A stretch of DNA of 64,000 nucleotides from Roseburia sp. (GTDB lineage Bacteria > Bacillota > Clostridia > Lachnospirales > Lachnospiraceae): NCBI GenBank assembly GCA_017937095.1, contig JAGBEG010000004.1, forward strand, positions 124,001 to 188,000, read 5' to 3'. Below are positions 11,898-26,167 of this stretch, piece by piece. Each line of letters begins with the position of its first letter. Positions within the stretch are counted from its first letter, which is position 1. A model generated the notes under the pieces. That model did no database searches. It worked only from the letters and a program-made list of their open reading frames with translations, and had not been told where the DNA came from. A program made the position numbers and the translations under genes.

Positions 11898-13022
11898 CTA
11901 TATTTCAATCAGCTCATAGCAGTCGCTTCCAAGTCCGATCTTCACGGCATGTTCAATGCAGCTCTTCCAGTTCGTGTCAGGATGCACCATATGAAAATGA
12001 TCGTGATGCGCCGCTTCCTCCTTATGTACCATGCAGTTCTCATGCAGCACGCTGTGATTCTCTAACATCGGCTGCTTATTGCAGAGATCGGCACACGCCA
12101 TATCGAGCGCTACCGGATCGAACGACGCCAGCATACCCACATTCGGGATAATCGGTACATCATTCTCCGCGTGGCAGTCGCAGTTGGGGGACACATCACA
12201 GATCAGCGAAATGTGAAAGCACGGTCTGTCCTGACAGACTGCCTTGCTGTACTCTGCAATCTTATAGTTAAGCACATCATTGGAGTTCGCCTGTGTCGGA
12301 TGCACCGCATCCTTCGGACAGACGCCGATACAGCGGCCGCAGCCCACGCATTTGTTCTGATCGATTGTCGCTTTCCCGTTTAAAATCACCGGGGCGTCGT
12401 GCGCGCAGATGCGCTTACAGGCTCCGCAGCCCACGCAGAGGCTCTGCGCTACCGCAGGCTTGCCCTGATTGTGCATCTCCATTTTTCCGGCTCTCGAGCC
12501 GCAGCCCATTCCGATGTTCTTGAGCGCTCCTCCAAATCCCGTCGCCTCATGTCCCTTAAAATGCGTCAGCGAAATAAACACATCGGCATCCATGACCGCC
12601 TGCCCGATCTTCGCTTTCTTCACATATTCCCCGTCTACCGGAACAAGCGCTTCATCTGTTCCCTTAAGACCGTCCGCGATAATGACATGGCATCCGGTGG
12701 AAAATGGTGAAAATCCGTTCACATAAGCCGTATCCAGATGATCGAGCGCATTCTTTCTGCTGCCCACATAGAGCGTATTACAGTCGGTAAGGAACGGTTT
12801 GCCTCCAAGCTCCTTTACCAGATCCGCCACGACCTTCGCATAATTTGGGCGAAGGAACGCAAGATTGCCGTATTCCCCGAAGTGAATCTTGATTGCCGCG
12901 TATTTGTCCTTAAAATCAATCTCCTTCATACCCGCAGTAATGCAGAGACGCCTTAACTTCTGAAGAAGATTCTCGCTTCCGGTCGTCCGAAAGTCCGTGT
13001 AATATACCTTCGACTGTTCCAT
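11898..13022 (-). CDS. DUF362-domain 2[4Fe-4S] ferredoxin-like protein
   Basis: A 374-residue cytosolic protein. The DUF362 region (about 40-180) contains CHVIIADGLKG and LTHFKGHEATGFGGALKNIGMG. Between about 190 and 250 lie two 4Fe-4S motifs, CVGCGACKRIC and CVGCGRCIGVC. A C-terminal part follows with several histidines (CDCHAE, AAHHDHFHMVH). Function is unknown for the family; electron transfer or metal handling is likely. It has AAGGAGG before ATG 13022 and a large hairpin plus phased TTTAC repeats upstream, so it heads the transcript that includes the surface nucleotidase. Confidence 0.88.
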   Translation of the reverse strand: MEQSKVYYTDFRTTGSENLLQKLRRLCITAGMKEIDFKDKYAAIKIHFGEYGNLAFLRPNYAKVVADLVKELGGKPFLTDCNTLYVGSRKNALDHLDTAYVNGFSPFSTGCHVIIADGLKGTDEALVPVDGEYVKKAKIGQAVMDADVFISLTHFKGHEATGFGGALKNIGMGCGSRAGKMEMHNQGKPAVAQSLCVGCGACKRICAHDAPVILNGKATIDQNKCVGCGRCIGVCPKDAVHPTQANSNDVLNYKIAEYSKAVCQDRPCFHISLICDVSPNCDCHAENDVPIIPNVGMLASFDPVALDMACADLCNKQPMLENHSVLHENCMVHKEEAAHHDHFHMVHPDTNWKSCIEHAVKIGLGSDCYELIEI

Positions 13023-13045
13023 ACTCTTTCCTCCTTAAAATGAAG

Positions 13046-13084
13046 CACCCGCATACCGGATGGACCATCCGGTATGCGGTGCAC
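13046..13084. terminator. Strong hairpin just upstream of the DUF362 gene
   Basis: GCATACCGGATGG pairs perfectly with CCATCCGGTATGC around a single base, extended by flanking GCACC/GGTGC. It lies about 10 bp from the RBS of the DUF362 gene. On the minus strand the run after it is only TTCATTTT, so it may be a terminator or an mRNA leader structure. Confidence 0.6.
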
Positions 13085-13094
13085 TTTTCGCTAT

Positions 13095-13132
13095 TTTACA
13101 AAAAACTTACCTATATTTTACACGAATTTACA
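13095..13132. promoter_or_regulatory. Phased TTTAC repeats (PhoP-box-like) upstream of the DUF362/nucleotidase operon
   Basis: On the plus strand TTTACA starts at 13095, 13117 and 13127, with a degenerate CTTACC at 13106, giving spacings of 11, 11 and 10 bp. Each full copy fits the Bacillus PhoP half-site TT(A/T)A(C/T)A. The array is about 70-110 bp before the DUF362 start. The link to phosphate control is inference. Confidence 0.5.
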
Positions 13133-13147
13133 AATGATGTAAACCTA

Positions 13148-13199
13148 AACAGAGCCGGTTTTCGCGAAGCAGATATGCTTACACGAAACCGGCTCTGTT
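13148..13199 (-). terminator. Hairpin after the cytosolic nucleotidase
   Basis: AACAGAGCCGGTTTTCG pairs with CGAAACCGGCTCTGTT (stem about 16 bp, one bulge) 14 bp beyond the stop of the gene at 13213. On the minus strand it is followed by TAGGTTTAC, a weak T run. It likely closes the phn-nucleotidase operon. Confidence 0.65.
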
Positions 13200-13212
13200 G
13201 CCTTTTCCTTAT

Positions 13213-14709
13213 TTATACTATAACATATGGATTCTGATGGAAGTATTCCACAATCAGTTCCACCATCTCTGTATTTATTTCCGAGAGCAGCTTGCACTCT
13301 GTATAGACCGGATAGCCGCCTGCCCCGCTGTAACGGTAATTATTCAGGCACATCGTAAAACGATCCGAATCGCTTACGTTCTTCCCTTCATAGGCAAGGT
13401 TCTTAATGCGGCTCCCTCTCGGCGCCCGTGGGTCGATCTCATAGGTAACGCCCATATAGTAATCGTAATTATAGTGCTCGACCTTCGGCGCAAGAAAGCT
13501 GTCCGCAACACACACTGCTCCGTCGTCATCTATTGCAAAATATTCCGCGCTGCGCTCCATTGCGGTGCGAAGCTGTGCGCCCGTGATCTCGCACACGACC
13601 AGTGAATTTGGATACGGATATGTGGCAATGACATCCCGCATACTCACATCCCTGCGAAACCCCGCAATTTCATTTGCAAGCCCCACCGACGAAAGCTGGG
13701 CATTCGAGAAATACAACTGAATTTTGTTGAGGAAATCTGCAATCGGCGAGCCGCCAAGAGCCATATCGACCTTCCCCGCCGGGCGCAGTTCCCTGCTCAA
13801 ATGTCCAATCGGCTGATCCAGCCACTTTTGCACAGCCTTCTCCACAGGCTGATACTTTTTGCACAATTCCTGTTGTTTTTCTCCACATAAGTCCGCTTTC
13901 ATCCGCTCTGAGCGGATGCTTTTCTTTCCATCTGTCCACGTCAGTTCCAGATAGTGATACTCTCTGGCATTCTCCACAGGCTGTACCACATAAGTTCCGG
14001 ACACAAGCTGCCCGTCAATCGACGTGTGCTGATGCCCGGTCAGAAGAATATCATAATCCAACTCCTCACAGATGCGATAACCGATATTCTCCGTCGTCGA
14101 AGAGAGTACCCTGCCGCTCGGTAAATCCCGCTCGAACCCGCCGTGATAAATCAGAATCGTGACGTCCGTCTGTTTTTTTATCTCGCCAAGCGCCTGTTTC
14201 GCCGCCGCAAAAGGATCTGTCACACGGATTCCCACAAGATTTTTCTGTTTCTCCCAGATGTTTACATAGTCTGTTACAACACCGACAATGCCGACGCAAA
14301 GTCCATTCGGCATGACGCGGATATCATACGGATAAAGTACCCTTCCTGCATCATCCGTGACGTTCTGGCAGACGCATCTGCCCCGGTTCGCCTGTATGTA
14401 GGCGCGCTGATACGCCTGTCCATAATTGAAATCGTGATTTCCCAGCGTATAGTAATCATAGCCGCAGTCACTCATGATTTCCCCGATTGTCTCTGGTGTT
14501 TCCAGGACCTGTCTGCAGTAGCCCGCAAACGCCGATCCCTGCAGAATATCGCCGCCGTCTATGACAAGCGTCTCCTCATCCCGCGCAAATCCACCGGCAC
14601 ATGCGAAAAGTCCCATCTGCTTTCGCTCATCATCCCCATAGCTCGTCGGATAGAAATATCCGTGGACATCGGATGTAAAATATAACTTTAATTTCTTTGT
14701 CTGACTCAT
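13213..14709 (-). CDS. Cytosolic bifunctional metallophosphatase/5'-nucleotidase
   Basis: A 498-residue UshA/CpdB-type phosphoesterase without a signal peptide or membrane helix. Metal motifs are YFTSDVHGYF, DGGDILQG, GNHDFNYG and LLTGHQHTSID. The C-terminal 5'-nucleotidase domain covers about 310-465. It sits 83 bp after the second permease of the phn-type importer, on the same strand. The arrangement suggests the importer brings a phosphorylated compound that this enzyme dephosphorylates inside the cell. The exact substrate (nucleoside monophosphate, cyclic nucleotide or other ester) cannot be read from sequence. Confidence 0.87.
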   Translation of the reverse strand: MSQTKKLKLYFTSDVHGYFYPTSYGDDERKQMGLFACAGGFARDEETLVIDGGDILQGSAFAGYCRQVLETPETIGEIMSDCGYDYYTLGNHDFNYGQAYQRAYIQANRGRCVCQNVTDDAGRVLYPYDIRVMPNGLCVGIVGVVTDYVNIWEKQKNLVGIRVTDPFAAAKQALGEIKKQTDVTILIYHGGFERDLPSGRVLSSTTENIGYRICEELDYDILLTGHQHTSIDGQLVSGTYVVQPVENAREYHYLELTWTDGKKSIRSERMKADLCGEKQQELCKKYQPVEKAVQKWLDQPIGHLSRELRPAGKVDMALGGSPIADFLNKIQLYFSNAQLSSVGLANEIAGFRRDVSMRDVIATYPYPNSLVVCEITGAQLRTAMERSAEYFAIDDDGAVCVADSFLAPKVEHYNYDYYMGVTYEIDPRAPRGSRIKNLAYEGKNVSDSDRFTMCLNNYRYSGAGGYPVYTECKLLSEINTEMVELIVEYFHQNPYVIV

Positions 14710-14792
14710 ATATTTTCCTTACTTTTTCTCATTTCTACATGCTGCGGCGAAGAAATCTGTCTCTTATCCTGCAATACCGCAGCAAACCCCTG

Positions 14793-15602
14793 TCAGCCTC
14801 TCGCAAGCTTCGTGCGGATTTTACCTGAGAATACTTCTATAATTAATATCAGCACAATCAGACCAGCCAGAATCGCGCCGACCTGATTCCACTTATACGC
14901 GCTCATCGCAAAAATCAACGGCGCGCCAATACCTCCCGCCCCTACCAGACCGAGCACGGTCGCGTCTCTTAAATTCATGTCAAATCGGTAAATAATCGTT
15001 GACATGAAGTCGGGAAAGAGCTGGGACAGGATTCCGTAACGGATCTTCTGGAACATCGTGCAGCCCGCCGCATCGAGCGATTCTAAAATCTTAGTATCCA
15101 GATCCTCAATGCTTTCGATGAACATTTTGCTGACCATTCCGATGGAACACAGCGACATTGTGAGCAGGCCCGCAAACGGCCCCGGTCCGGTCACACGGAT
15201 GAACATGAGTCCATACACGAACGCCGGGATTGTCCGGATCGCCATGATAAAGGTTCTGAACACCAGCGCCACAGGCTTTGGCACAAGGTTGACCGCCGAC
15301 AGAAAGGACAGCGGTACGGACAATATTGCGCCTACGATCGTTCCGAGAAATGCGATACACATCGTCTCAAGCAGCAGATACGCCACACCGGACGTCGTGA
15401 AATTAAACAACAGCTCTGTGTCAGGGTGAAAGATTCCGCTGACAATTCTTCCTGCGACCGCGAGCCCGTCCCCGCCTGTGCTTCCCGTCTGTACCGCAGA
15501 CATTGACCACGCCATTAAGACTGCCACTATAAGCGCCGCCAGAAGCTTTGCATACCATGTCTTTGGTTCCTGCTCATACATTTTATCTATTTCGTTCTTC
15601 AT
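14793..15602 (-). CDS. phnE: Phosphonate-type ABC permease (PhnE family), second copy
   Basis: A 269-residue inner-membrane permease with about six helices. The binding-protein-dependent transport motif is seen as EALDAAG plus the later GLVGAGGIGAPL, which contacts the ATPase. It pairs with the other PhnE-like permease 45 bp upstream to form a heterodimeric channel. The importer type is set by the PhnC and PhnD homologues in the same operon. phn-type systems carry phosphonates, phosphite or phosphate esters in different bacteria, so the symbol indicates family only. Confidence 0.85.
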   Translation of the reverse strand: MKNEIDKMYEQEPKTWYAKLLAALIVAVLMAWSMSAVQTGSTGGDGLAVAGRIVSGIFHPDTELLFNFTTSGVAYLLLETMCIAFLGTIVGAILSVPLSFLSAVNLVPKPVALVFRTFIMAIRTIPAFVYGLMFIRVTGPGPFAGLLTMSLCSIGMVSKMFIESIEDLDTKILESLDAAGCTMFQKIRYGILSQLFPDFMSTIIYRFDMNLRDATVLGLVGAGGIGAPLIFAMSAYKWNQVGAILAGLIVLILIIEVFSGKIRTKLARG

Positions 15603-15647
15603 AATCCCGTTCCTTTCAAAAACTGAGAATTTCCGGCAGCATAAGTT

Positions 15648-16469
15648 TTAAGTCAATTTCTTTCGGATATAGTGACTGAGCGCCTCTATGATGAGTACCG
15701 TACCAAACAGGATAATCAGTATCATTCCCACGCTGTCATATTCACGCCAGCCGATTTTCTCATTGAGGATCAGGCCGAGTCCTCCTGCACCGACGTAGCC
15801 GAGGATGGCGGCATAGCGCACATTTCCCTCCAGACAGAACAGACAGACGGAAAGATATGCCGGGAGCACCTGCGGCTGTATCGCTGTGAGAAACGCATCG
15901 AGCTTTCCCGCTCCCATTGCCTCCATCGCCTCATAAGCGCCCATGTCCACCGTCTCGATCAGCTCGTAGAGCTGTTTTCCAACATACGCGAACGTAAATA
16001 CCGCAATCGCCACGGTTCCCGCCATCGTTCCCAGTCCCCAGATATAAGTCGCAATGAGCGCCGCCACAAGTGTCGGTATGGTACGAACAATGCTTAAGAA
16101 TACGCGCACAACGCCAAGGACAATTTTGTTCCTGATCAGATTGGCGGACGCCAAAATCGCAAACGGTATCGCGAGCACGCTTCCCACAAAGGAGCCGAGC
16201 AGTGACATCTTGATCGTATCGAGAAGCGGTCCCCAGATATTTCCGATATAATCGACATTTGGCGGGAACATCTGTCCTAAAATGACAAAGAACTGGTTTC
16301 CCCTTGTGAAGATGGTCGTTAGGGAAAAGCCTGTAATCCGCACGGACACAATCGTCGCGGCGAGAAGCAGAAGAAGGATAAGAGGCGTCCTGCTGGCTTT
16401 CTCTTCTACGACTTTTCCGTTCGCCAGAACAATTTTTTTCGGTTTGAAAATTTTATCATACAATCCCAT
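15648..16469 (-). CDS. phnE: Phosphonate-type ABC permease (PhnE family), first copy
   Basis: A 273-residue permease with an N-terminal cytoplasmic stretch, then about six membrane helices. The coupling helix is around EAMEAMGAGK, and GYVGAGGLGLILNE is the PhnE-family signature. Its ATG directly abuts the stop codon of the ATPase gene, indicating translational coupling. It is about a quarter to a third identical by eye to its downstream partner, consistent with an ancient duplication. Confidence 0.86.
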   Translation of the reverse strand: MGLYDKIFKPKKIVLANGKVVEEKASRTPLILLLLLAATIVSVRITGFSLTTIFTRGNQFFVILGQMFPPNVDYIGNIWGPLLDTIKMSLLGSFVGSVLAIPFAILASANLIRNKIVLGVVRVFLSIVRTIPTLVAALIATYIWGLGTMAGTVAIAVFTFAYVGKQLYELIETVDMGAYEAMEAMGAGKLDAFLTAIQPQVLPAYLSVCLFCLEGNVRYAAILGYVGAGGLGLILNEKIGWREYDSVGMILIILFGTVLIIEALSHYIRKKLT

Positions 16470-17231
16470 TTAGTTCTCCTCCGCGGCATCCGGTATCTTT
16501 CCCTCATAAATTGTGTTCAAGACCTCATCCGTGACCTCGCCGGAAGGTCCGTCATAGACGATCCTGCCCGCGCGGATACCGATAATGCGGTCTGCGTAGG
16601 CAAGCGCCAGCTCGACATGATGAATATTGATGAGAATCGAGATGTTCATTTCCTGATTGATCTTCTTAAAGTCGCTCATGACCTGCTTTGCCGTGACCGG
16701 ATCTAACGCCGCTACCGGCTCGTCCGCAAGGATGATCTCGGGATTCTGCGCTAACGTGCGCGCTAACGCCACACGCTGCTGCTGTCCGCCGGAGAGCTGA
16801 TCCGCCCGGATATATGCCTTATCAAGAATCCCGACCTTGTCGAGCGCCTCAAGCGCTTCAAGTTTATCCTCTTTTTTAAAGACGCCGAGCAATACTCTCC
16901 AGAACGGCATTTCCGGCACCTTCGCCATCAGTACGTTACGAATGACCGTTGTTCTCGTCACAAGGTTAAAGGACTGAAAAATCATACCGATTCTACGGCG
17001 GAATTTCCGAAGTTCCCTGCCTTTAAGATTCTTTACCTCCAGCCCATCCACGGTGAGCGTTCCCTCCGTGATATCGTGCATGCGGTTAATCGTCCGAAGC
17101 AGGGTCGATTTTCCCGCACCGGAAAGACCGATGATTCCTACAAATTCACCCTGATCGATTGTCAGGTTGACATGGTCAAGCCCCACCGTACCGTTCGGAT
17201 ATACTTTAGATACATTTGAAAACTCTATCAT
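16470..17231 (-). CDS. phnC: Phosphonate-type ABC transporter ATPase (PhnC)
   Basis: A 253-residue ATPase with Walker [10 protein letters not shown], a Q-loop at IFQSFNL, signature [13 protein letters not shown], Walker B EIILADEP and switch histidine in INIHHVELA. The start is ATG 17229-17231 behind AGAAGGAG; the ORF extends upstream to 17279 without an RBS. It energises the two PhnE permeases and receives substrate from PhnD, encoded upstream beyond a hairpin. No C-P lyase or other phosphonate-degrading gene lies in this window. Confidence 0.9.
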
Positions 17232-17283
17232 ACGTGCTCCTTCTGCTTTGCCGCGCATAAACCACGGCTCTTTTATCACATAA

Positions 17284-17309
17284 GGGCTGCGACAATTCTG
17301 CCGCAGCCC
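17284..17309 (-). terminator. Intra-operon hairpin between phnD and phnC
   Basis: GGGCTGCG pairs perfectly with CGCAGCCC over a 10-nt loop, in the 133-bp gap between the binding-protein and ATPase genes. The following TTATGTG is a poor T run. Such hairpins often stabilise the binding-protein mRNA or partly stop transcription so the binding protein is made in excess. Confidence 0.55.
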
Positions 17310-17364
17310 CGCCCTTCGTTTCTACCTTCCGTTTTCTGCTGTCTGATGTTCTTCTGTTCTGCTG

Positions 17365-18480
17365 TTAGTTGGCTGCCGAAAGCTCCTGAATCAGCTTCTG
17401 CGCTTCTCTTTCCTTATCATAGTCGGAAGATTGTGCCGGCTCATAGCCGTTGTGGCTATAGATGGCAATAACAGCCTTTCCTTCTTCGGTATTTCCGATG
17501 TTGATGAGCGCTGTCTGGATCGCCGCTTTTAAGTTCTCATCCATGTTGGCAGAAGTCTTGCTGACACAGACCGTATCGTTGTAAATCGGATCTGTCACGC
17601 CTATGACATTTGTCTCCTCCCAGATGGAAGCGCTGCGGCCATACTCTGTTGTCCATGTCTCCTCATAGTCGCGTCTTGCATCCGCGTAGGTAATCAGGAC
17701 GTCCACCTGACCGGAAGCAAGTCTTGCAAATGCACTTGCATAGGAGTCAGACTGTACGGCGCTGGATAACTCTGTGATACCTTTACCGTATCTGTCCTGT
17801 AACCATAAGGAAGGATAGATATAGCCTGCCGGAGAAGAGGAGGACATAACGCTCCAGTTTGCGCCATCAAGGTCTTCCCATGTAAGCTCCTCGCCGCCGT
17901 TTACCTTCGCTGCAAGCTCCTGACCTTTCTCGGAAGGTCCTGCGATGAACAACGCGCGGTAAGAAACCGCCTGATTCTCGGATGCCACTGTCGGTTGTCC
18001 GTCGTTCCAGTCTGCCGCATTTCCAGAATCCTTGCTAAGGCCGTCTCTGGTCGCTGTCAGAATAACATCACATCCATCATCGTAAAGAACATAAGTACCG
18101 CCCGGGATAAATCCTACGTCTGCCGTTCCCGCTGTGAGTGCCTCACCGACTGCCTCATAAGTCGTACCTACGGAAATAACGACCTCATCCACATCGTAGC
18201 CCAGTCCTGCCAGCTCGCTCTTCATCAGCTCGCTTAGCGGCTCGGTCGCCGTTACGATTTCCTCCGGATCTCTGGACGGAACGAAATATACATTCAGGGT
18301 ATCAAGATGCACATTGTCTGCCGGAGCTTCTGCCTGCGCGTCTGCTGCGCTCTCCGTGCCTGCAGGAGCCGTCCCATTTCCTGCTGCAGCCGCATCTGCG
18401 CCTTCTGTTTCATTTCCGCAGCCTGCAAGCATTCCTGCACACATTGCTGCTGTTACTAATGTCGCGGTCAATTTCTTCAT
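17365..18480 (-). CDS. phnD: Phosphonate/phosphate-ester-type binding lipoprotein (PhnD family)
   Basis: A 371-residue lipoprotein with signal sequence and lipobox LAGC (Cys about 21), then a low-complexity Ala/Gly/Glu linker and a PhnD-type domain (about 55-350). Family landmarks are NVYFVPSRDP at the start, VGFIPGGTY and SGQVDVLITYADA. It captures substrate at the cell surface for the PhnCEE importer. The start ATG 18480 follows AGAGGAG and gives the expected signal peptide. The LacI gene ends 40 bp upstream. Ligand specificity is open. Confidence 0.87.
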   Translation of the reverse strand: MKKLTATLVTAAMCAGMLAGCGNETEGADAAAAGNGTAPAGTESAADAQAEAPADNVHLDTLNVYFVPSRDPEEIVTATEPLSELMKSELAGLGYDVDEVVISVGTTYEAVGEALTAGTADVGFIPGGTYVLYDDGCDVILTATRDGLSKDSGNAADWNDGQPTVASENQAVSYRALFIAGPSEKGQELAAKVNGGEELTWEDLDGANWSVMSSSSPAGYIYPSLWLQDRYGKGITELSSAVQSDSYASAFARLASGQVDVLITYADARRDYEETWTTEYGRSASIWEETNVIGVTDPIYNDTVCVSKTSANMDENLKAAIQTALINIGNTEEGKAVIAIYSHNGYEPAQSSDYDKEREAQKLIQELSAAN

Positions 18481-18520
18481 AATCGTGAATTCTCCTCTCT
18501 GCTGTTGCATGAACCGCGTC

Positions 18521-19495
18521 TTATGCACTGTCGCCGATTTCCAATTTTGCCGGGAGATAGACCTTCATACTGTCTTCCCGCTTATCAATGATTCTCTCCA
18601 TCAAAAGCTTGATTGCCGTGGACCATACAATGTCCGGCAGCATCCGAAGGCTGGTGTAGGTCGGATATTTCGTCTGCAGCGTCTCGATATCCCGGTAAAT
18701 GACCACCGCGATATCCTTCGGTATCCGGTATTTCTGTTCCCGGATCGCCTCCATAGCGCCCTCCGCTACCTCGTCATTTCCCAAAAGCAGAACCTCAGGG
18801 ATATCCTTCGTATCTAACAAGCTCTTCGTCAGAGCGTAACCGCTCTCCCGGCTCAATTCTCCCACGAGGAAGTATTTCTCTGTAAAGCTGCCCCGCTCCT
18901 TTAGAATCTCTTTCAGGCCTTCAAGCCGGTGCGTACCGATTCTGACACCATTTTCCTCGTAGATACCGCCTATGTACCCGATACTCCGGTACTCCTTCTG
19001 ATCGAGCAGGTAATGTACCATATCCCTGATTCCCTGCTCGTAGTCCATGATGATCTGATCGAACTCATAATTTTTCTGGTCAGAATTGACAAACAGGATC
19101 ACGTAGCTCTGCCGTCTGAGAAAGTCCATCTCCTCCTCCGAAAAGGAGCCGACTGCGATAATTCCGTCCACCTGCATTTCCTCGCCCCAGACAAGCCGGT
19201 GAAAGCTGACGTCCGCCTTCTTAAGCATTGCCTCCACGACGCAGGGAAGGGACTCCAATCGCATATCCTCCCTGTCCTTTCTCACGATATGCCAGTCCGC
19301 TACTCCAATGGTAATCGTTTTTCCTTTCTGTGCATGACGCATCTTCGGCGGAATATATTTCAACTCATGAGCAATTTTATAAATCTGGTTGCGCACCTCC
19401 GGTGTCACCACAAGCGTCTCATCCTGATTGAGCACACGCGACACGGTAGCCGACGAAACATTTGCTAATTGTGCTATCTCTTTGATTGTTGCCAT
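18521..19495 (-). CDS. LacI-family transcriptional regulator
   Basis: A 324-residue regulator with the LacI HTH at the N-terminus (IKEIAQLANVSSATVSRVLN, residues 4-23) and a periplasmic-binding-like effector domain (about 60-320). The hinge helix region around 48-60 is less conserved than in PurR. The start ATG 19495 has AGAAAGG upstream; the longer ORF has none. It is the first gene of the phn-type operon and probably regulates it. A LacI regulator, usually sugar- or nucleoside-responsive, suggests the transported compound contains such a moiety. Confidence 0.88.
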   Translation of the reverse strand: MATIKEIAQLANVSSATVSRVLNQDETLVVTPEVRNQIYKIAHELKYIPPKMRHAQKGKTITIGVADWHIVRKDREDMRLESLPCVVEAMLKKADVSFHRLVWGEEMQVDGIIAVGSFSEEEMDFLRRQSYVILFVNSDQKNYEFDQIIMDYEQGIRDMVHYLLDQKEYRSIGYIGGIYEENGVRIGTHRLEGLKEILKERGSFTEKYFLVGELSRESGYALTKSLLDTKDIPEVLLLGNDEVAEGAMEAIREQKYRIPKDIAVVIYRDIETLQTKYPTYTSLRMLPDIVWSTAIKLLMERIIDKREDSMKVYLPAKLEIGDSA

Positions 19496-19553
19496 ATAAT
19501 CACGCCTTTCTTCTGCATTATATTTCACGATTTCTCTGATTTCAATAGAAAAG

Positions 19554-19587
19554 GTAAAATTTTACTAAATTTTTACCGCATTTTACA
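19554..19587. promoter_or_regulatory. Phased TTTAC repeats and palindrome upstream of the lacI-phn operon
   Basis: TTTAC starts at 19561, 19572 and 19582 (spacings 11 and 10 bp). The first overlaps a perfect 12-bp palindrome, GTAAAATTTTAC (19554-19565). The order and spacing match the array at 13106-13131. It lies about 60-90 bp before the LacI start. It may bind a PhoP-like regulator; the palindrome alone could be an operator for the LacI protein, though it lacks the usual central CG. Confidence 0.5.
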
Positions 19588-19672
19588 CCGTCTATACGGA
19601 CAGCTTATAATTATAATAATTACCGCTAATTTTTCCTGTATTTTATGACATGACGCAGCTCATATTTCCCGT

Positions 19673-20395
19673 CTACGGTTCAAGGATCATACTGCGGATT
19701 GTCCCGACGGATATGTAACCATTCTGTATGGCGTAGGCATCCGTGCCCTCTGGAAACGGCGTCGTCACGGGAATGCCTGCCGCCGATACGACAAAACTAT
19801 CCTCCCCTTCCCGGACCCTCTGAAAATGATCCCGGTAGAACGGCGTCTGCGCCGACGTGCATCCCCATCTGATTCCCTTAAGCCCGGAGAGCGCACATCC
19901 CGGGAAATTCACGTTCCATATCTCATTTGCGGGAAGCGGCTGTTTTAAAAGCTTCTCCGCAATCGGAATCAGGTATTCCCCGACCAATTCCGCACTTCCA
20001 TGCATTTCACTGGAAAAGGCGATTGCCGGAACCCCGTTTAACAGCGCTTCCATTGCAGCCCCGACCGTACCGGAATACTGAATATCTATCCCGGCATTGA
20101 ACCCGTGGTTGATGCCGGAAAATACAATGTCCGGCTTCTCCGTCATCAGCTCTGCGAGCGCGATCTTCACACAGTCCGCCGGTGTTCCCGCGACGCTGTA
20201 GGCGGTCACACCCTCCACCGGGAATGTCTCCTTTCGCACTTCGATTTCCCCGCGCAGGGTAATGCGTGAGGACATAGCGCTGCACTGATGCTTTGGAGCT
20301 ACGACCCAGACCTCGCCAAAGGTCTGCGCCGCCTCTGCGAGTCTTGCAATTCCTTCTGCCTGTATACCGTCATCATTTACCACGAGTATTCTCAT
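19673..20395 (-). CDS. surE: 5'/3'-nucleotidase SurE
   Basis: A 240-residue SurE phosphatase. The N-terminal ILVVNDDGIQAEGI carries the metal-binding Asp8-Asp9 pair. The APKHQCSAMSSRITL segment replaces the usual SG, and GINHGFNAG and YSGTVGAAMEA follow, with NVNFPG in the C-terminal half. It hydrolyses nucleoside monophosphates and short polyphosphate in the cytosol. Its start lies 3 bp after the stop of the MBL-fold gene, so the two are co-expressed. It is the third nucleotidase-type gene within 11 kb. Confidence 0.92.
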   Translation of the reverse strand: MRILVVNDDGIQAEGIARLAEAAQTFGEVWVVAPKHQCSAMSSRITLRGEIEVRKETFPVEGVTAYSVAGTPADCVKIALAELMTEKPDIVFSGINHGFNAGIDIQYSGTVGAAMEALLNGVPAIAFSSEMHGSAELVGEYLIPIAEKLLKQPLPANEIWNVNFPGCALSGLKGIRWGCTSAQTPFYRDHFQRVREGEDSFVVSAAGIPVTTPFPEGTDAYAIQNGYISVGTIRSMILEP

Positions 20396-20398
20396 ATA

Positions 20399-21748
20399 TC
20401 ATCTGTTCTCCTTCTTCTGTTCTGCTTCTTTTTTCAAATCGTTCTCTCTCAGTATATAACAATCTCCGTAATTCGGCAAAATTTGTTTTCCCGCCTTTTT
20501 TGACTGTACCTGTTCGGGTCGTTCGCTGTGCAGCGGCACCAGCACGTCTGGCGCAATCGTATCCACCATCCACCGCAGATAATAAGGCGTGGCATGACCT
20601 CCCAGACTCTTATACTCATATGGGATTTCCAGCGCTTCCAGCAGATCAAGCATCTTCTGGTAAGAGGTATCATAGCTTCCCAGCGGTGAACCGTCCATAT
20701 GGACGTAGCGTGACACAACGTCATTTAAGTCTATCAATTCGTACATATCGCTATAGTCAAGCTGCAGTACGTACTGTTCTGGATGGTCCAACAGCGCCTG
20801 TCCCGATACAATCTCCCGGTTTTCTGCGTGTTTCTCTCCGGCAGTCCGCTCATAGACATAAAGCTTATCGTCAGGATAAAATTCTTCCACATAGGACGCC
20901 AGAGTACTATCAAGTACCAGCCTGCGCCCTGCTTTTTCGAACGTCTCAAGCAGGCGGTGCACCCTCTCCACGTTCCGGTTGTAGAGGTTTATGACAAGAA
21001 GCCCGTCTTCTGCCGCCGCCATATCCCGCATCTCAGTCAGTAACGTTTCCTCTGTGCGTTCCTCTGCCGGCTCTTCCAGCGAAAGCATATCCACATCGGA
21101 AAAGCTCACCGTCACACCCTCTGTAATCAGCACGTCCGCACCTGCGGCACTTTTTGCAAAAGCACGCGTGTCTTCCGGATGGAATCCATGAAAACGGTAA
21201 TCCCCCGTATAACAGATCGTCCCGTCCGGCGTCGTGATGAGAAATCCGGCTGCCCCGACAACATCATGGTCGATTGCCAGCACCCTGACTGTGATGTCTC
21301 CCACCTGAAAGCTCTCACCATACGGAATACCAATGCAGTTCTCATGCCCGCGTTCCTGTATATCGCCCGCCGCCTCCAATCTGCGGTACAGCCGCAGGGA
21401 CTGGTCGCTCATGTAAACCGGAGTATGCGCATCAAGCATTCCCAGTCCGCCCATATGGTCGATATGCATATGGGAAAGGAGAAAGAAGCATTCTTCTTTT
21501 GTCTCACCGTATGCCGCAAGATCGAGCTTTTTTGCCGTCTCCTTGTCATAGATTCCATCGGCTGGTGCAAGCATTCCCAGACGGATGTAGTCTGCTGCCA
21601 GATCCTCTTTTCGTTTCTTTATCCTTTCATCCATGCGTCCCGCAACGGCAAAGCCGAAGTCAAACATACATTTCGCTTTATCCGTCCGCACTTCCACGAA
21701 TGTTCCACCGATTTCACGCAATCCGTTATAAAAGCAGATTTTTGTCAT
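20399..21748 (-). CDS. Metallo-beta-lactamase-fold hydrolase (RNase J-like)
   Basis: A 449-residue protein with the zinc-binding HMHIDHMGG motif near residue 95, a later AIDHDVVGA, and CYTGDYRFHG with a metal-bridging Asp. A C-terminal GGHATPYYLR and VPLHSE resemble the beta-CASP motifs B and C of RNase J/CPSF-type nucleases. The family is usually annotated as an exonuclease or MBL-fold hydrolase. Position immediately before surE and after the ugp-like operon suggests a role in nucleic acid or phosphodiester breakdown for phosphorus supply, which is inference. The RBS is AGGAGG. Confidence 0.82.
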   Translation of the reverse strand: MTKICFYNGLREIGGTFVEVRTDKAKCMFDFGFAVAGRMDERIKKRKEDLAADYIRLGMLAPADGIYDKETAKKLDLAAYGETKEECFFLLSHMHIDHMGGLGMLDAHTPVYMSDQSLRLYRRLEAAGDIQERGHENCIGIPYGESFQVGDITVRVLAIDHDVVGAAGFLITTPDGTICYTGDYRFHGFHPEDTRAFAKSAAGADVLITEGVTVSFSDVDMLSLEEPAEERTEETLLTEMRDMAAAEDGLLVINLYNRNVERVHRLLETFEKAGRRLVLDSTLASYVEEFYPDDKLYVYERTAGEKHAENREIVSGQALLDHPEQYVLQLDYSDMYELIDLNDVVSRYVHMDGSPLGSYDTSYQKMLDLLEALEIPYEYKSLGGHATPYYLRWMVDTIAPDVLVPLHSERPEQVQSKKAGKQILPNYGDCYILRENDLKKEAEQKKENR

Positions 21749-21782
21749 TTTGCTCCTCCTTTATCAAATATCAATTAAAATC

Positions 21783-21812
21783 AGCCGTGCAGTTTTGGAG
21801 AACCGCACGGCT
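21783..21812. terminator. Bidirectional terminator hairpin after the ugp-like operon
   Basis: AGCCGTGC pairs with GCACGGCT across a 14-nt loop. The plus strand continues TTTTCTGC and the minus strand GATTTTAATT. It separates the binding-protein gene from the MBL-fold gene, which has no obvious promoter of its own after the hairpin. Confidence 0.7.
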
Positions 21813-21841
21813 TTTTCTGCTTCCTGTCTCTATGTTCCAAC

Positions 21842-23179
21842 TTACTTCGTTTCAGCGTTCACCGCTTCCACCAGCTCAGAGAGCGCGGTTTCCGGGTCTG
21901 CGTCATTTAAGATCAGCTCCTCTAATTTTGCATTGACCGCAGACTGGATGTCATAGCTTCCGTCAAATGCCGGAGAACTGAAGAAGCTGTCCGCCTGTGC
22001 ATATGCAGCCGTCGCCGTAGCGTCATTCTTCATAAATTCCTGATAAGTATCAGACTCGTATGCAGAGGTGCGCACCGGAAGATATCCTGTCTCCATTGCC
22101 CACTTTACGGTAGCTTCCTCGGATGTTAAAAATTTCATGTACTCCCATACCGCCTTCTGCCTGTTCTCATCCTGTGAAAACATGACGAGGTTCGTTCCTG
22201 CCTGATTGGCTGCCTTCTCCTTGTTCCCCGGCAGCGGTGCGACGCCAAGCTCCCATCCCGAGGAAGTATCGATATAGGATACGCCGGTACTTGAACCGAT
22301 ATAAGCTGCGATCATCTGATTGCTGAACGGACCGGAGAAATATCCGTCCTCACCTACAAGACGCGCATAACCGTTGGAATAAAGATCCATGATGAAGGAT
22401 ACCGTCTCCAGTCCGGTCTCATTGTCAAACTGCGCGCCCTCTTCGGTCACATAGTCGCCGCCATTTTGTCTTAAGGACGCCTCGAGCATACCCGCCATAT
22501 CATCGAATCCAAGGGAAACCATACCTTTTTCTGTCTTGAATGCTTCGCCGACCGTCTTGATGTCTTCCCATGTCTCCGGTGCGGAAAGTCCCAGTTCATC
22601 GAAGAGCGTCTTATTGTAGAAATATACATAAGTACTCTTATTGAACGGCATTGCTGCGATAAATCCGAACTGGCTGCATTCATCCCTGTAGCTCTCAATG
22701 ATGTCGTCATAATTGTCATAGTCGTTTGCCACAAAATCATCCAGATGCACTACCTTGTCCAAATACGGAATCAGCCAGCTATTATACGCCTGCGCCATAT
22801 CCGGCAGGGTATCCGCCGCTGCATTTGCCGTAAGCTTTGTGCTGAGATCATTATAATATCCCTGATTTACCAATGTGACCTTGATGCCATATTCATTTTC
22901 ACTGTTGAACTGATCGGTCAGCTCGGTCAGTGTCACTTCCTGCTGCTCGCTCATCGCATGCCAGAAAGTAATCTCACATGGCTCAATCGCCGTATCGCTC
23001 TGCGCATCCCCGCTTTCTGCCTCCGCCGTACCTGCTGCGTCCGTACTCTCAGCGGGCTGCGCCGTATTCGCTGCCTCATCTGCTCCCGTCCCGCTGCTTC
23101 CATTATCGCCGCAGCCTGCCAGCATTCCTGTCGCTAATGCCGCTGTTAAAAGCATTGCGCCAATTCTTCTTCGTTTCAT
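21842..23179 (-). CDS. ugpB: UgpB-like binding lipoprotein (glycerol-3-phosphate family)
   Basis: A 445-residue extracellular solute-binding lipoprotein. The lipobox is LAGC (Cys about 22), followed by a Thr/Ala/Glu linker. Several segments match E. coli UgpB from memory: ITFWHAMS at the start, MPFNKSTYVYFYNK versus its PFNSSTPVLYYNK, the internal SSTG/SSG turn, and ETGYLPV near the end. UgpB binds glycerol-3-phosphate or glycerophosphodiesters; sugar-binding relatives are possible. The start ATG 23179 follows AGAGGAA, and an upstream in-frame extension to 23299 lacks an RBS. It is the last gene of the ugpCAEB-like operon. Confidence 0.75.
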   Translation of the reverse strand: MKRRRIGAMLLTAALATGMLAGCGDNGSSGTGADEAANTAQPAESTDAAGTAEAESGDAQSDTAIEPCEITFWHAMSEQQEVTLTELTDQFNSENEYGIKVTLVNQGYYNDLSTKLTANAAADTLPDMAQAYNSWLIPYLDKVVHLDDFVANDYDNYDDIIESYRDECSQFGFIAAMPFNKSTYVYFYNKTLFDELGLSAPETWEDIKTVGEAFKTEKGMVSLGFDDMAGMLEASLRQNGGDYVTEEGAQFDNETGLETVSFIMDLYSNGYARLVGEDGYFSGPFSNQMIAAYIGSSTGVSYIDTSSGWELGVAPLPGNKEKAANQAGTNLVMFSQDENRQKAVWEYMKFLTSEEATVKWAMETGYLPVRTSAYESDTYQEFMKNDATATAAYAQADSFFSSPAFDGSYDIQSAVNAKLEELILNDADPETALSELVEAVNAETK

Positions 23180-23258
23180 ATGCTTTTCCTCTCTTTCTCT
23201 ATGCGCCGGTATGATTGCCGGACGCCTGTATGGATATATATTCACCGGATTTTCCGGG

Positions 23259-24095
23259 TTATCCCTTGATTCCGCTCTGCGCCACGCCCTCAATGACATA
23301 CTTGCGCAAAAACAGGTAGATAATGATAATCGGCATGACCAGAATACAGGACGCTGCCATAATCAGTTCGTAGGAGGAACCCGCCTCCGTCTGGAACCGG
23401 ATCAGCCCGTTGGAAAGTACGCGCATTTCGTCCGAATTGGTGACGAGCAGCGGCCACAGGAAGGAGTTCCATGAACCGATGATGTTTAAAATTGCAATCG
23501 TTGTAATCGGACTTTTGTTCATCGGAACCATAATTTTTATCATATATTTGAAATCACTGCATTTATCCACCTTCGCCGCAAGATAAAGTGTTTCCGGCAC
23601 CTGCATGAAAAACTGGGTCAGCAGATAGATATAGAACACGTTGGAAAGCCACGGAACAATCATTGCCTGATAGGTGTCAATCCATTTAAGCTTCGTAATT
23701 GTGATAAAATTCGTGATGATTAACATCTCTCCGGGTATCATCAGCGTCGCAAGGAACAGCGAGAACACCAGCTTTTTCCCCGGAAAGTTAAGTCTCGAAA
23801 ACGCGAATGCCGAGAGTACCGTCGTAATCAGCACGCCAATGGTCGTAAATACCGTGATGATGACCGTGTTGATCAGATATCTTCCGAACGGCGCCGCTGC
23901 CCACGCTTTTGCATAGTTCACGACCTGAATCTCCTCCGGGAACAGCGACGGCGGTACCCTTACGATTTCCGTAGCGGATTTCAGGGAAGATGATATCATC
24001 CAGACAAAGGGCAGCAGCGTAAAGAGTGCCCCTACAATCAGAACGACATACTTTAAAATCGTTCCGAGGCTGCTTTTTATCTTTTTTTCGTTCAT
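23259..24095 (-). CDS. ugpE: UgpE/MalG-type ABC permease
   Basis: A 278-residue permease with six predicted helices. The EAA motif appears as AAKVDKCSDFKYMIKIMVPM, with the downstream proline-rich turn. It forms a heterodimer with the permease 10 bp upstream and binds the UgpC-like ATPase. Assignment to UgpE rather than a sugar permease rests on the UgpB-like partner. Confidence 0.78.
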   Translation of the reverse strand: MNEKKIKSSLGTILKYVVLIVGALFTLLPFVWMISSSLKSATEIVRVPPSLFPEEIQVVNYAKAWAAAPFGRYLINTVIITVFTTIGVLITTVLSAFAFSRLNFPGKKLVFSLFLATLMIPGEMLIITNFITITKLKWIDTYQAMIVPWLSNVFYIYLLTQFFMQVPETLYLAAKVDKCSDFKYMIKIMVPMNKSPITTIAILNIIGSWNSFLWPLLVTNSDEMRVLSNGLIRFQTEAGSSYELIMAASCILVMPIIIIYLFLRKYVIEGVAQSGIKG

Positions 24096-24105
24096 TATGT
24101 ACCTC

Positions 24106-24978
24106 CTACGCAGTCTTTTTGTCTGAGACCGCCCGCTGTATCATGGTAAGCGCCAGTATGATTACAAACAGCACGACAGCCGCCGCAGACGCCACGCCAT
24201 AGTCCGCGCTGTTATAGAATTTGTCATAGATATAATAGACCACGGTAATCGCGCTGTTTGCCGGACCCGCGCTGCTCTTGAACAGGGAAAATACTTCATT
24301 GTACACCTTGAATGCATTGATCATTCCCATGATGAATGCGTACGCAATCATCGGCGAAATTCCCGGTACTGTGATCTTTAGAAAGACCCGCCACTTCGGC
24401 GTTGCGTCCACGCGCGCCGCGTTATAGAGATCCGGCGATATGGTCTGCAATCCTGCAAGGAAGATCAGAATGTCAAACGCCATGCTCTTCCATATACTGA
24501 AAATAATCAGCGCCATCAGTGCATAGTCCGGCGAATTAAGCCAAGGGACTGCCTCGATGCCGAACCAGCTTAAAACATAGTTGAGCAATCCATAATTACT
24601 ATTGAATATCCAGCTCCATACGATACCGATTGCAATGACGCTCGTAACGTACGGAAGGAAAAATAAGGTCTGAAACATCCCCTTACAGCGGATTTTGCTG
24701 TTTAACAGCACCGCAATCAGCAGTGACAAAAGAATCGAACAGGGAACCACGAACACCACATAAATGCTGGTATTGGTAAGCGCCTTCCGAAAAACCTTAT
24801 CCGAAAACAACTCCTTATAATTTCCAAGCCCAATTGCGTCAAAACTTCCATTTATAATGCTGTAGCCCTCATAAAAGCTCATAAGTACCGCTTTAATCAA
24901 CGGATAAATCGTAAATACCAATATGATAATCAGCGCGGGCAAAAGATACAGATAGCCCTTCAAACTTTTCTTTTCCAT
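24106..24978 (-). CDS. ugpA: UgpA/MalF-type ABC permease
   Basis: A 290-residue permease with six helices. The EAA loop is at AARVDATPKWRVFLKITVPG, matching the CUT1 permease consensus. It overlaps no neighbour; the ATPase gene ends 15 bp upstream. It works with the UgpE-like subunit to import the ligand delivered by the lipoprotein at 21842. Confidence 0.78.
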   Translation of the reverse strand: MEKKSLKGYLYLLPALIIILVFTIYPLIKAVLMSFYEGYSIINGSFDAIGLGNYKELFSDKVFRKALTNTSIYVVFVVPCSILLSLLIAVLLNSKIRCKGMFQTLFFLPYVTSVIAIGIVWSWIFNSNYGLLNYVLSWFGIEAVPWLNSPDYALMALIIFSIWKSMAFDILIFLAGLQTISPDLYNAARVDATPKWRVFLKITVPGISPMIAYAFIMGMINAFKVYNEVFSLFKSSAGPANSAITVVYYIYDKFYNSADYGVASAAAVVLFVIILALTMIQRAVSDKKTA

Positions 24979-24993
24979 CTCACATCTCCCGCA

Positions 24994-26037
24994 TCAATAT
25001 TTCCCGATCATGCTGCCGTCTGCATCAAACAGCATAATCTGGTTCTGCCGCACGCCCAGTTTAAACGCGCCGCCCTTTTCTATCTGCAAATCAGAGTGTG
25101 CCAACACGCGAAGCGGTTCTTTATCCAATGTGAAATAAATCAAAAGGTCACGTCCTGTCATACGGACATGCGCCGCCTCCACCGCAAATCCATCCTCCCG
25201 TACCTCAAAGGATTCGGGTCGGATTCCCGCGGTATATGTCCCGTCTGATAATCCGCTGATCTCCCGCAATTTTACCTGCCCGCAGTAAATCGCTCCATCC
25301 TTCACAACTGCGGAAAAGGTGTTGATCTCCGGCATTCCAAGGAACTGCGCCACAAATAGATTCTCCGGTTCAAGATACATGCTCTGCGGCACTTCATACT
25401 GCTGCACAACGCCCTTGTCCATGACTGCAATCTTATCGGAAATGCTCATCGCCTCCTCCTGATCGTGCGTCACGAAAATCGTTGTGATTCCCACTTCCTG
25501 CTGTATTCTGCGGATTTCCTCACGCGTCTCAATACGAAGCTTTGCGTCCAGATTGGAAAGCGGCTCATCCAGCAGAAGGACCTTCGGCTTCTTCACGAGC
25601 GCTCTCGCGATCGCGACACGCTGCTGCTGTCCGCCGGAGAGCGCCTTTGGCTTTCGATCCATAAGCCCCTCTAAGTGCACCAGCTTTGCCATTTCATATG
25701 CGCGTTCCTTTGCCTCTTTCTTATTCACCTTCCGATTGATGAGCGGAAACATGATGTTCTCCTCTACCGTCATGTGCGGATACAGCGCGTAATTCTGGAA
25801 TACCAGTCCGATTTCCCGTTCTTCCGGCGGTATCTTCGTTACATCCTTATCGCCAAAGAAAATTTTTCCGTCTGTCGGCTCGGTAAGTCCCGCAAGCATA
25901 AAAAGCGTTGTCGACTTGCCGCAGCCCGACGGTCCTAACAGTCCAACCAGTTCTCCGTCGCAGATCGTTAAGTTCATGCCGTCCACTGCCCGAAAGTCTC
26001 CATACGCTTTTGTCAGATTTTCTATTCTGATTTCCAT
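24994..26037 (-). CDS. ugpC: UgpC/MsmK-type ABC transporter ATPase
   Basis: A 347-residue ATPase. Walker A is GPSGCGKST, signature [13 protein letters not shown], Walker B VLLLDEP, and the switch His is in VTHDQEEA. A C-terminal TOBE/OB regulatory region covers about 240-345, as in MalK and UgpC. It is the first gene of the four-gene importer operon. Such ATPases can serve several CUT1 importers. The 250-bp region upstream is shared with the divergent tldD gene and carries TTTAC repeats. Confidence 0.85.
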   Translation of the reverse strand: MEIRIENLTKAYGDFRAVDGMNLTICDGELVGLLGPSGCGKSTTLFMLAGLTEPTDGKIFFGDKDVTKIPPEEREIGLVFQNYALYPHMTVEENIMFPLINRKVNKKEAKERAYEMAKLVHLEGLMDRKPKALSGGQQQRVAIARALVKKPKVLLLDEPLSNLDAKLRIETREEIRRIQQEVGITTIFVTHDQEEAMSISDKIAVMDKGVVQQYEVPQSMYLEPENLFVAQFLGMPEINTFSAVVKDGAIYCGQVKLREISGLSDGTYTAGIRPESFEVREDGFAVEAAHVRMTGRDLLIYFTLDKEPLRVLAHSDLQIEKGGAFKLGVRQNQIMLFDADGSMIGKY

Positions 26038-26135
26038 AACTATCTACCTCTGTTTCTGCCTGCCGTTTCTGAATGTGTGTGACAGGATCATGGTGATAAT
26101 GTAGCACAGAAATTTTTTACAACAAACCAAACACC

Positions 26136-26167
26136 AGTAAATTTCAAGTAAAATTCCTGTATGTAAA
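26136..26167. promoter_or_regulatory. TTTAC repeats upstream of the ugp-like operon
   Basis: On the minus strand TTTAC(A/T) occurs at 26162-26167, 26147-26152 and 26136-26141. The last two are 11 bp apart and a degenerate copy falls on the next 11-bp step. The motif is the same as at 13.1 and 19.6 kb, but in the opposite orientation relative to the gene and with one irregular 15-bp gap. It lies about 100-130 bp before the ATPase start. Confidence 0.4.

Follow-up and report, generated by a model that had tools for sequence, protein, structure and literature searches.

Phased TTTAC Arrays before Phosphorus-Related Operons in Roseburia as Predicted PhoP Boxes

Introduction

The stretch of DNA considered here, called the window throughout, covers 64,000 nucleotides of a contig of Roseburia sp. 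(JAGBEG010000004.1), and its minus strand carries three operons: one for a DUF362 protein and a 5′-nucleotidase-like phosphoesterase, one that joins a LacI-family regulator to phosphonate (phn) transport genes and a further nucleotidase-like gene, and one for a ugp-like ABC transporter. In front of each lies an array of TTTAC units, mostly set 10 to 11 bp apart. An earlier note on this DNA had pointed out the three arrays and had placed all three operons under the control of phosphate starvation. As argued below, the arrays are very probably PhoP (Pho) boxes, predicted to be bound by the organism's own phosphorylated PhoP.

The PhoP box of Bacillus subtilis is made of direct repeats of the TT(A/T/C)ACA type, and its core site was reportedly named by Liu and Hulett in 1998. 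Like this box, the arrays have a hexamer-like unit in direct repeats about one helical turn apart, occur in either orientation, and are found before pst, phoPR and phosphodiesterase targets; unlike it, they are built on TTTAC with a loose sixth base, an A in 34 of the 69 units compared. No definition of a Pho box for the Lachnospiraceae was recognised in the open-access literature searched, most subscription papers being outside the scope of the search.

The Three Arrays and Their Operons

All three arrays were re-read in the sequence and stand where they had been placed. On the plus strand, array 1 has TTTAC at 13095, 13117 and 13127, together with a CTTAC at 13106 that carries one mismatch (spacing 11-11-10), and array 2 has TTTAC at 19561, 19572 and 19582 (spacing 11-10); on the minus strand, array 3 has TTTAC at 26167, 26152 and 26141 (spacing 15-11). 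The base that follows TTTAC is A or T in eight of these ten units and C in the other two. Array 1 lies 5′ of the DUF362 gene, array 2 lies 5′ of lacI, and array 3 occupies the interval between the ugpC-like gene and a divergent tldD-like gene. The gene content of the operons behind them (Table 1) agrees, by Pfam and NCBIfam, with the DUF362/nucleotidase, lacI-phn-nucleotidase and ugp-like assignments made from the letters. The NCBIfam cut-offs are passed by phnC and by phnE at 15648-16469, with phnD below. In the ugp-like operon SurE passes TIGR00087, and all four Ugp-like proteins score under the curated cut-offs. The named proteins that best match DUF362 come from Lachnospiraceae or from genera placed in that family.

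How often would such phasing arise by chance? When exact TTTAC pairs were sought at every spacing from 6 to 30, only four pairs at 10-11 bp were found in the 64-kb window, all of them within arrays 1-3. In shuffles of the window made in 250-base blocks with dinucleotides preserved (n = 200), the mean was 0.13 such pairs, none of the 200 reached four, and no triple appeared in any.

Table 1. Features of the window (strand as reported) and of related loci discussed in the text.
Feature	Position	Strand	Basis
5′-nucleotidase-like phosphoesterase (Metallophos + 5_nucleotid_C), gene 2 of the DUF362 operon	9834..11813	-	Pfam
DUF362 protein with 4Fe-4S (ferredoxin) domains, gene 1 of the operon	11898..13022	-	Pfam PF04015, 186.7 bits
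Array 1, four phased units; on the gene strand GTAAA/GTAAA/GGTAAG/GTAAA at 10, 11, 11 bp	13095..13131	-	Sequence scan, promoter comparison
Sigma-A-like promoter TTTACA-17-TAAAAT, its -10 being an array unit	13115..13143	-	Comparison with relatives
phnD, phnC, phnE, phnE, 5′-nucleotidase-like gene	13213..18528	-	Pfam
LacI-family regulator, gene 1 of the phn operon	18521..19495	-	Pfam; relatives
lacI promoter TTGAAA-17-TATAAT	19517..19545	-	-35, spacer length and -10 identical in four species
TTTAGTAAA-NN-TTTAC palindrome sharing one array unit; candidate LacI auto-operator	19554..19569	-	Found in four lacI promoters
Array 2, three phased units (11, 10 bp) directly upstream of the lacI -35	19560..19586	-	Sequence scan, relatives
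ugpC/ugpA/ugpE/ugpB-like ABC transporter, metallo-beta-lactamase-fold protein, SurE	19673..26037	-	Pfam, NCBIfam
Weak candidate promoter TTGTTG-16-TACATT, downstream of array 3	26098..26125	-	By eye, inference
Array 3, three TTTAC units at 15 and 11 bp	26137..26167	-	Sequence scan
PhoB/PhoP-like regulator	L011:10237-10908		Best match PhoB
Phosphoglycerol-transferase-like gene, array downstream of a sigma-A-like promoter	L012:7167-9654		Layout common to seven genomes
LtaS-like gene, phased TTTAC units downstream of a sigma-A-like promoter	L370:1333-3413
PhnF-like GntR regulator, ABC transporter, metallo-beta-lactamase-fold protein and inositol monophosphatase behind a TTTAC pair	L369:6274-12031

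Arrays across the Genome and the Genus

In the window's genome (3.9 Mb in 24 contigs), the signal of the arrays is the location of the matches, not their number. Match numbers being uninformative genome-wide (see the counts below), the test was made on the neighbouring genes, and a match qualified when the 5′ end of a listed phosphorus-related gene lay no more than 350 bp downstream of it. Nine of the 26 exact TTTAC-N6-TTTAC pairs qualify, against none of the 26 matches to the reversed motif and none of the 30 off-phase pairs, out of 41, whose loci were assessed, so that a good share of the pairs does lie before pst, pho and other phosphorus genes, the question that the earlier note had put to the whole genome. 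These nine matches precede GDPD, pstS, the Na/Pi cotransporter-phoPR genes, a phosphoglycerol-transferase-like gene (two overlapping matches), a second LtaS-like gene, a PhnF-like GntR operon, lacI-phn and ugpC.

The survey was then widened to 60 genomes (the window's own, 35 others of the genus and 24 others of the order), in which the triple array TTTACN{5,6}TTTACN{5,6}TTTAC has 50 matches and its reversed version, the control, 32. Within the genus there are 41 matches at 38 sites, every one of which was examined: 23 stand before a listed gene, against 0 of 30 control loci (the matches, out of 32, that had loci), or 0 of 24 if the control is held to the same genus; two of the control loci, L288 and L297, are one and the same site. 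The qualifying sites comprise eight before a Na/Pi cotransporter, seven before the phosphoglycerol-transferase-like gene, five before pstS, two before lacI-phn and one before a GntR/PhnF-like operon. When the list is narrowed to pstS, Na/Pi cotransporter and phn genes and the window's own site is excluded, 14 of 37 remain (Fisher p = 1e-4 against the 30 control loci, 4e-4 against the 24). Cotransporter calls required at least 35% identity, and two triple arrays before weaker matches (L197 at 34% and L267 at 32%) were thus scored as misses; the misses studied further lie before AAA ATPases, permeases and other genes without a clear phosphorus link. The nine triple-array matches in other families of the order are excluded from this genus count.

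A comparison of units in 23 arrays gives the spacing 11-11 in 20, 11-10 in two and 10-11 in one, in sites picked for having three or more units and with a search pattern that permitted only 10 or 11 bp, so that the 11-bp phase is partly built in by choice. The base after TTTAC, an A in the Bacillus hexamer TT(A/T)A(C/T)A as the earlier note gives it, is A in 34 of the 69 units, T in 15, C in 12 and G in 8.

Two other repeats also recur. One belongs to the control set, which is not noise alone: CATTTTTGCAT, repeated at 11 bp, is identical in three genomes (L275, L280 and L287), in two of which the locus includes a PhoR-like histidine kinase, and it may serve a different two-component system as its box. 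The other, of the TTTACT type at 10-11 bp, stands before AAA ATPase (ATPase_2) genes in the three genomes L206, L254 and L256, taking the form TTTACTGT in the last two, and apparently differs from the Pho arrays.

The Candidate Regulator

Which protein, then, would read these repeats? Locus L011 encodes, in order, a polyphosphate kinase, pstS, the pst genes, phoU, a Na/Pi cotransporter, a PhoB/PhoP-like response regulator and a PnpS/PhoR-like kinase, with phased TTTAC units in front of both pstS and the cotransporter. The kinase reaches 262 with the PnpS model, below the cut-off of 400, and like the regulator it lies beside pst-phoU. With arrays before pst, the Na/Pi cotransporter-phoPR genes, GDPD and others and none qualifying in the controls, the repeats are therefore best read as PhoP boxes. 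They share with Pho boxes direct repeats of about 11 bp, a place in the promoters of pst, of the regulator's own cluster and of organophosphate genes, and a genome that encodes a PhoP/PhoR-like pair. Under low phosphate, phosphorylated PhoP would bind the head-to-tail TTTAC half-sites, one helical turn apart.

In the PstS protein of this locus (L011:3920-4957), the C-terminal part fits the start of the phosphate-binding profile and the N-terminal part a profile end, as if the protein were circularly permuted.

Position of the Arrays and Sign of Control

The sign of PhoP action would be set by the position of the array relative to the sigma-A promoter. In the Na/Pi cotransporter promoters, measured with TATAAT as the sole -10 word, this hexamer starts 11 or 22 bp past the last preceding unit in six of seven, with none in L255. 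The Pho box of Escherichia coli PhoB is described as two 11-nt direct repeats, with 7 conserved and 4 loose positions (PMC4415409). The arrays resemble it in their 11-bp phase, in their tandem units and in this -10 placed one or two turns past the last unit, and differ from it in the conserved sequence, CTGTCAT in E. coli and TTTAC here.

Array 2 has the layout expected of an activator site, just upstream of a -35, and among the three operons of the window the predicted PhoP control is best supported for this one. It is present in each of the four lacI promoters identified (G000, G035, G071 and G077, with one unit degenerate in G077), the LacI proteins of the last three sharing with that of the window 77% (G035), 83% (G071) and 72% (G077) identity, and lacI starts 66-67 bp from the array in G000 and G035. 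PhoP is thus predicted to activate lacI-phnDCEE-nucleotidase. The palindrome that overlaps the last array unit is likely a LacI operator, in which case the operon may need low phosphate plus an inducer. Its centre reads AT, AG, AA or AC in the four species, and the central CG step typical of LacI-family operators is seen in none of them.

Array 1 is placed otherwise. Counted from a putative start point, it spans about -23 to +14 and overlaps the sigma-A-like -10 and the start region, which is a repressor's position; for this reason repression or tuning is predicted, and is more likely than induction, so that PhoP would block or tune the DUF362-nucleotidase operon. Relatives of the nucleotidase, at 61-89% identity, occur in 27 of 59 other same-genus genomes, and for five of these 27 orthologs the roughly 250 bp upstream contain a phased array, in every case unmatched in 100 shuffles; with the window included, units lie at the promoter in 8 of 28. 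All eight nucleotidase or DUF362-nucleotidase promoters compared read TTTACA- or TTTACT-17-TAAAAT, and in each a further exact GTAAA is found at a distance of 10-11, 22 or 33 bp from the -10, with off-phase copies as well in four. Five of the eight were chosen for having an array and two (L339 and L341) are near-identical, so that this set is a description and not a test. In G020 and G071, which keep the DUF362-nucleotidase pair, the stretch upstream of DUF362 scores 4.5 and 5.0, against 7.0 in the window. A second promoter, for which the last unit of array 1 would serve as -10 and which would imply activation, was rejected, as by eye it misfits G020 and G067.

The DUF362 leader holds a very stable hairpin (13043-13086, minus strand) with CATTTTAAGGAGG after it; the folding energy of the 72-nt leader is -32.4 kcal/mol (z -5.35), which none of 200 shuffles equals, and the hairpin could be an attenuator.

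Array 3, whose three units are set 15 and 11 bp apart, lies about 60 bp before a weak candidate promoter. PhoP may activate the ugp-like operon from this site, at about -60, and the arrangement is suggestive of such control. No close relative of the ugpA-like permease was found in 59 other same-genus genomes, the best reaching 45% identity. Phosphate-starvation control of all three operons, as first proposed, is therefore supported in part: the case for it is good at the phn operon, control of DUF362-nucleotidase is likely, with array 1 pointing to repression or tuning more than to induction, and at the ugp-like operon there is no more than a suggestion of it.

The opposite layout to that of the cotransporter is found at genes for surface polymers. 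In the window's genome and six relatives, a TTGATT/TTGTTT-17-TATATT/TATAGT promoter precedes a sulfatase-fold gene (794 residues here), and the array starts 21-23 bp after the -10 in all seven. The solved proteins nearest to this gene product are the phosphoglycerol transferase GacH and a lipoteichoic acid primase and synthase. The second LtaS-like gene has TTGACA-16-TAAAAT, with two units starting 12 bp after the -10. Repression by PhoP is predicted for these phosphoglycerol-transferase-like and LtaS-like genes, and on the simplest reading of the two layouts that of the Na/Pi cotransporter would mean activation and that of an array after the -10 a roadblock. The GntR/PhnF-like operons with arrays (Table 1) look like organophosphate uptake systems; at a further such locus, L259, a triple array stands before a GntR gene, a GDPD-like piece and transporter genes.

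From these layouts a tentative scheme for the genus may be drawn, which in our estimate falls a little short of being probable: one PhoP would act with two signs set by position, activating phosphate, phosphonate and organophosphate uptake from upstream of the -10, and from downstream of or over the -10 shutting off phosphoglycerol transferases and dampening the nucleotidase, so that low phosphate would rewire the cell surface.

Weighing the Alternatives

Several observations weigh against the PhoP reading. Over the whole genome the exact pair has 26 matches and its reversed control also 26, the triple array with up to two mismatches is rarer than its control (19 against 46), as is the off-phase pair (41 against 78), and raw match counting was dropped as evidence since neither the exact pair nor this mismatched triple exceeds its control. 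By the 350-bp rule, 17 of the 26 matches in the genome and 15 of the 38 genus sites have no listed gene, and the neighbours without a link to phosphorus include AAA ATPases, EamA permeases, an MCP, a GNAT protein, an FGGY kinase, a GanS-like binding protein, an EF-G-like GTPase and addB. The gene list was moreover partly filled in from the neighbours of arrays (GDPD, the two sulfatase-fold genes and the GntR operon); a strict count, restricted to pstS, the Na/Pi cotransporter and GDPD with the window sites excluded, gives 3/24 against 0/56 (p = 0.025). Of the nine matches in other families of the order, only the one in L215 has pstS downstream. The PhoP-like regulator scores 229 with the PhoB model, below the cut-off of 296. 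Twenty of the 28 nucleotidase orthologs have no array in the stretch directly upstream, a stretch that for operon-internal genes does not include the operon's own promoter. Among 78 more distant DUF362 relatives (of 80 loci) the best upstream array score is 3.0, compared with 7.0 for array 1, and DUF362 was rejected as a widely conserved array target. Lastly, the spacing of array 3 is irregular.

The arrays might instead be boxes of another regulator of the OmpR family, above all a WalR (YycF)-like one. The WalR box has the consensus TGTWAH-N5-TGTWAH (PMC9210968), whose reverse complement gives nearly the same repeat and phase as the TTTAC arrays, so that the regulator could not be told from the motif by itself. 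That source also lists the pstC-phoU genes and the sodium:phosphate symporter of Clostridioides difficile among those changed upon wal knockdown (PMC9210968); the present genome has WalR-like pairs, the best of which (C3:152879, 277 bits) lies beside a WalK/PnpS-like kinase, and some array-bearing genes are surface-polymer genes, for which WalR remains a candidate. However, no response regulator of the genome reaches the 340-bit cut-off of the YycF/WalR equivalog (best 276.5 bits, so that a diverged one may be present), the A needed for TGTAAA is present in 34 of 69 units, and the neighbouring genes favour PhoP: the commonest in the genus are the Na/Pi cotransporter, the phosphoglycerol-transferase-like gene and pstS, and two arrays lie in the phoPR cluster itself. 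We hold a WalR-like reader to be improbable.

Closer to the window, could array 2 be mainly the operator of the adjacent LacI-family regulator, its likeness to the other arrays being partly coincidence? The regulator gene is the first of the operon, and each of the four lacI promoters examined has the TTTAGTAAA-NN-TTTAC palindrome 8 bp upstream of its -35; yet beyond the palindrome G000, G035 and G071 have two more units, spaced at 10-11 bp (G077 has one of these in degenerate form), and the same array repeat precedes pstS and the Na/Pi cotransporter, which makes this explanation distinctly improbable. It is rather unlikely, too, that array 2 alone is regulatory, with array 3 due to chance and array 1 a side effect of having a sigma-A promoter (TTTACA, GTAAAAT) in DNA rich in A and T. 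For such a view speak the uneven steps of array 3, the many nucleotidase orthologs without an array, and the TTTACA-17-TAAAAT promoter before DUF362 in L114 and L115 (two of the eight more distant relatives printed), both without an array. Against it stand the five orthologs whose upstream arrays no shuffle equals, the scores of G020 and G071, which exceed the maximum in the 78 distant relatives, and the window shuffles, in which four pairs were never reached. PhoP boxes thus remain the preferred reading of the arrays.

Conclusion

In B. subtilis, phosphorylated PhoP represses tagAB (PMC6232261). The scheme proposed here is alike in that a Pho regulator is predicted to switch off the synthesis of phosphate-rich surface polymers, and unlike in its candidates, phosphoglycerol-transferase-like genes whose units lie 12 or 21-23 bp after the -10. 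Switches of this kind are known; the one proposed here belongs to bacteria that have been little studied, and it is ordinary in kind and useful in detail. It provides a usable definition of the Pho box, together with a predicted regulon, for a large genus of the Lachnospiraceae, and from it follow two predictions: that phosphonate uptake would be under the joint control of phosphate and LacI, and that PhoP would shut down the making of glycerol-phosphate surface polymers.

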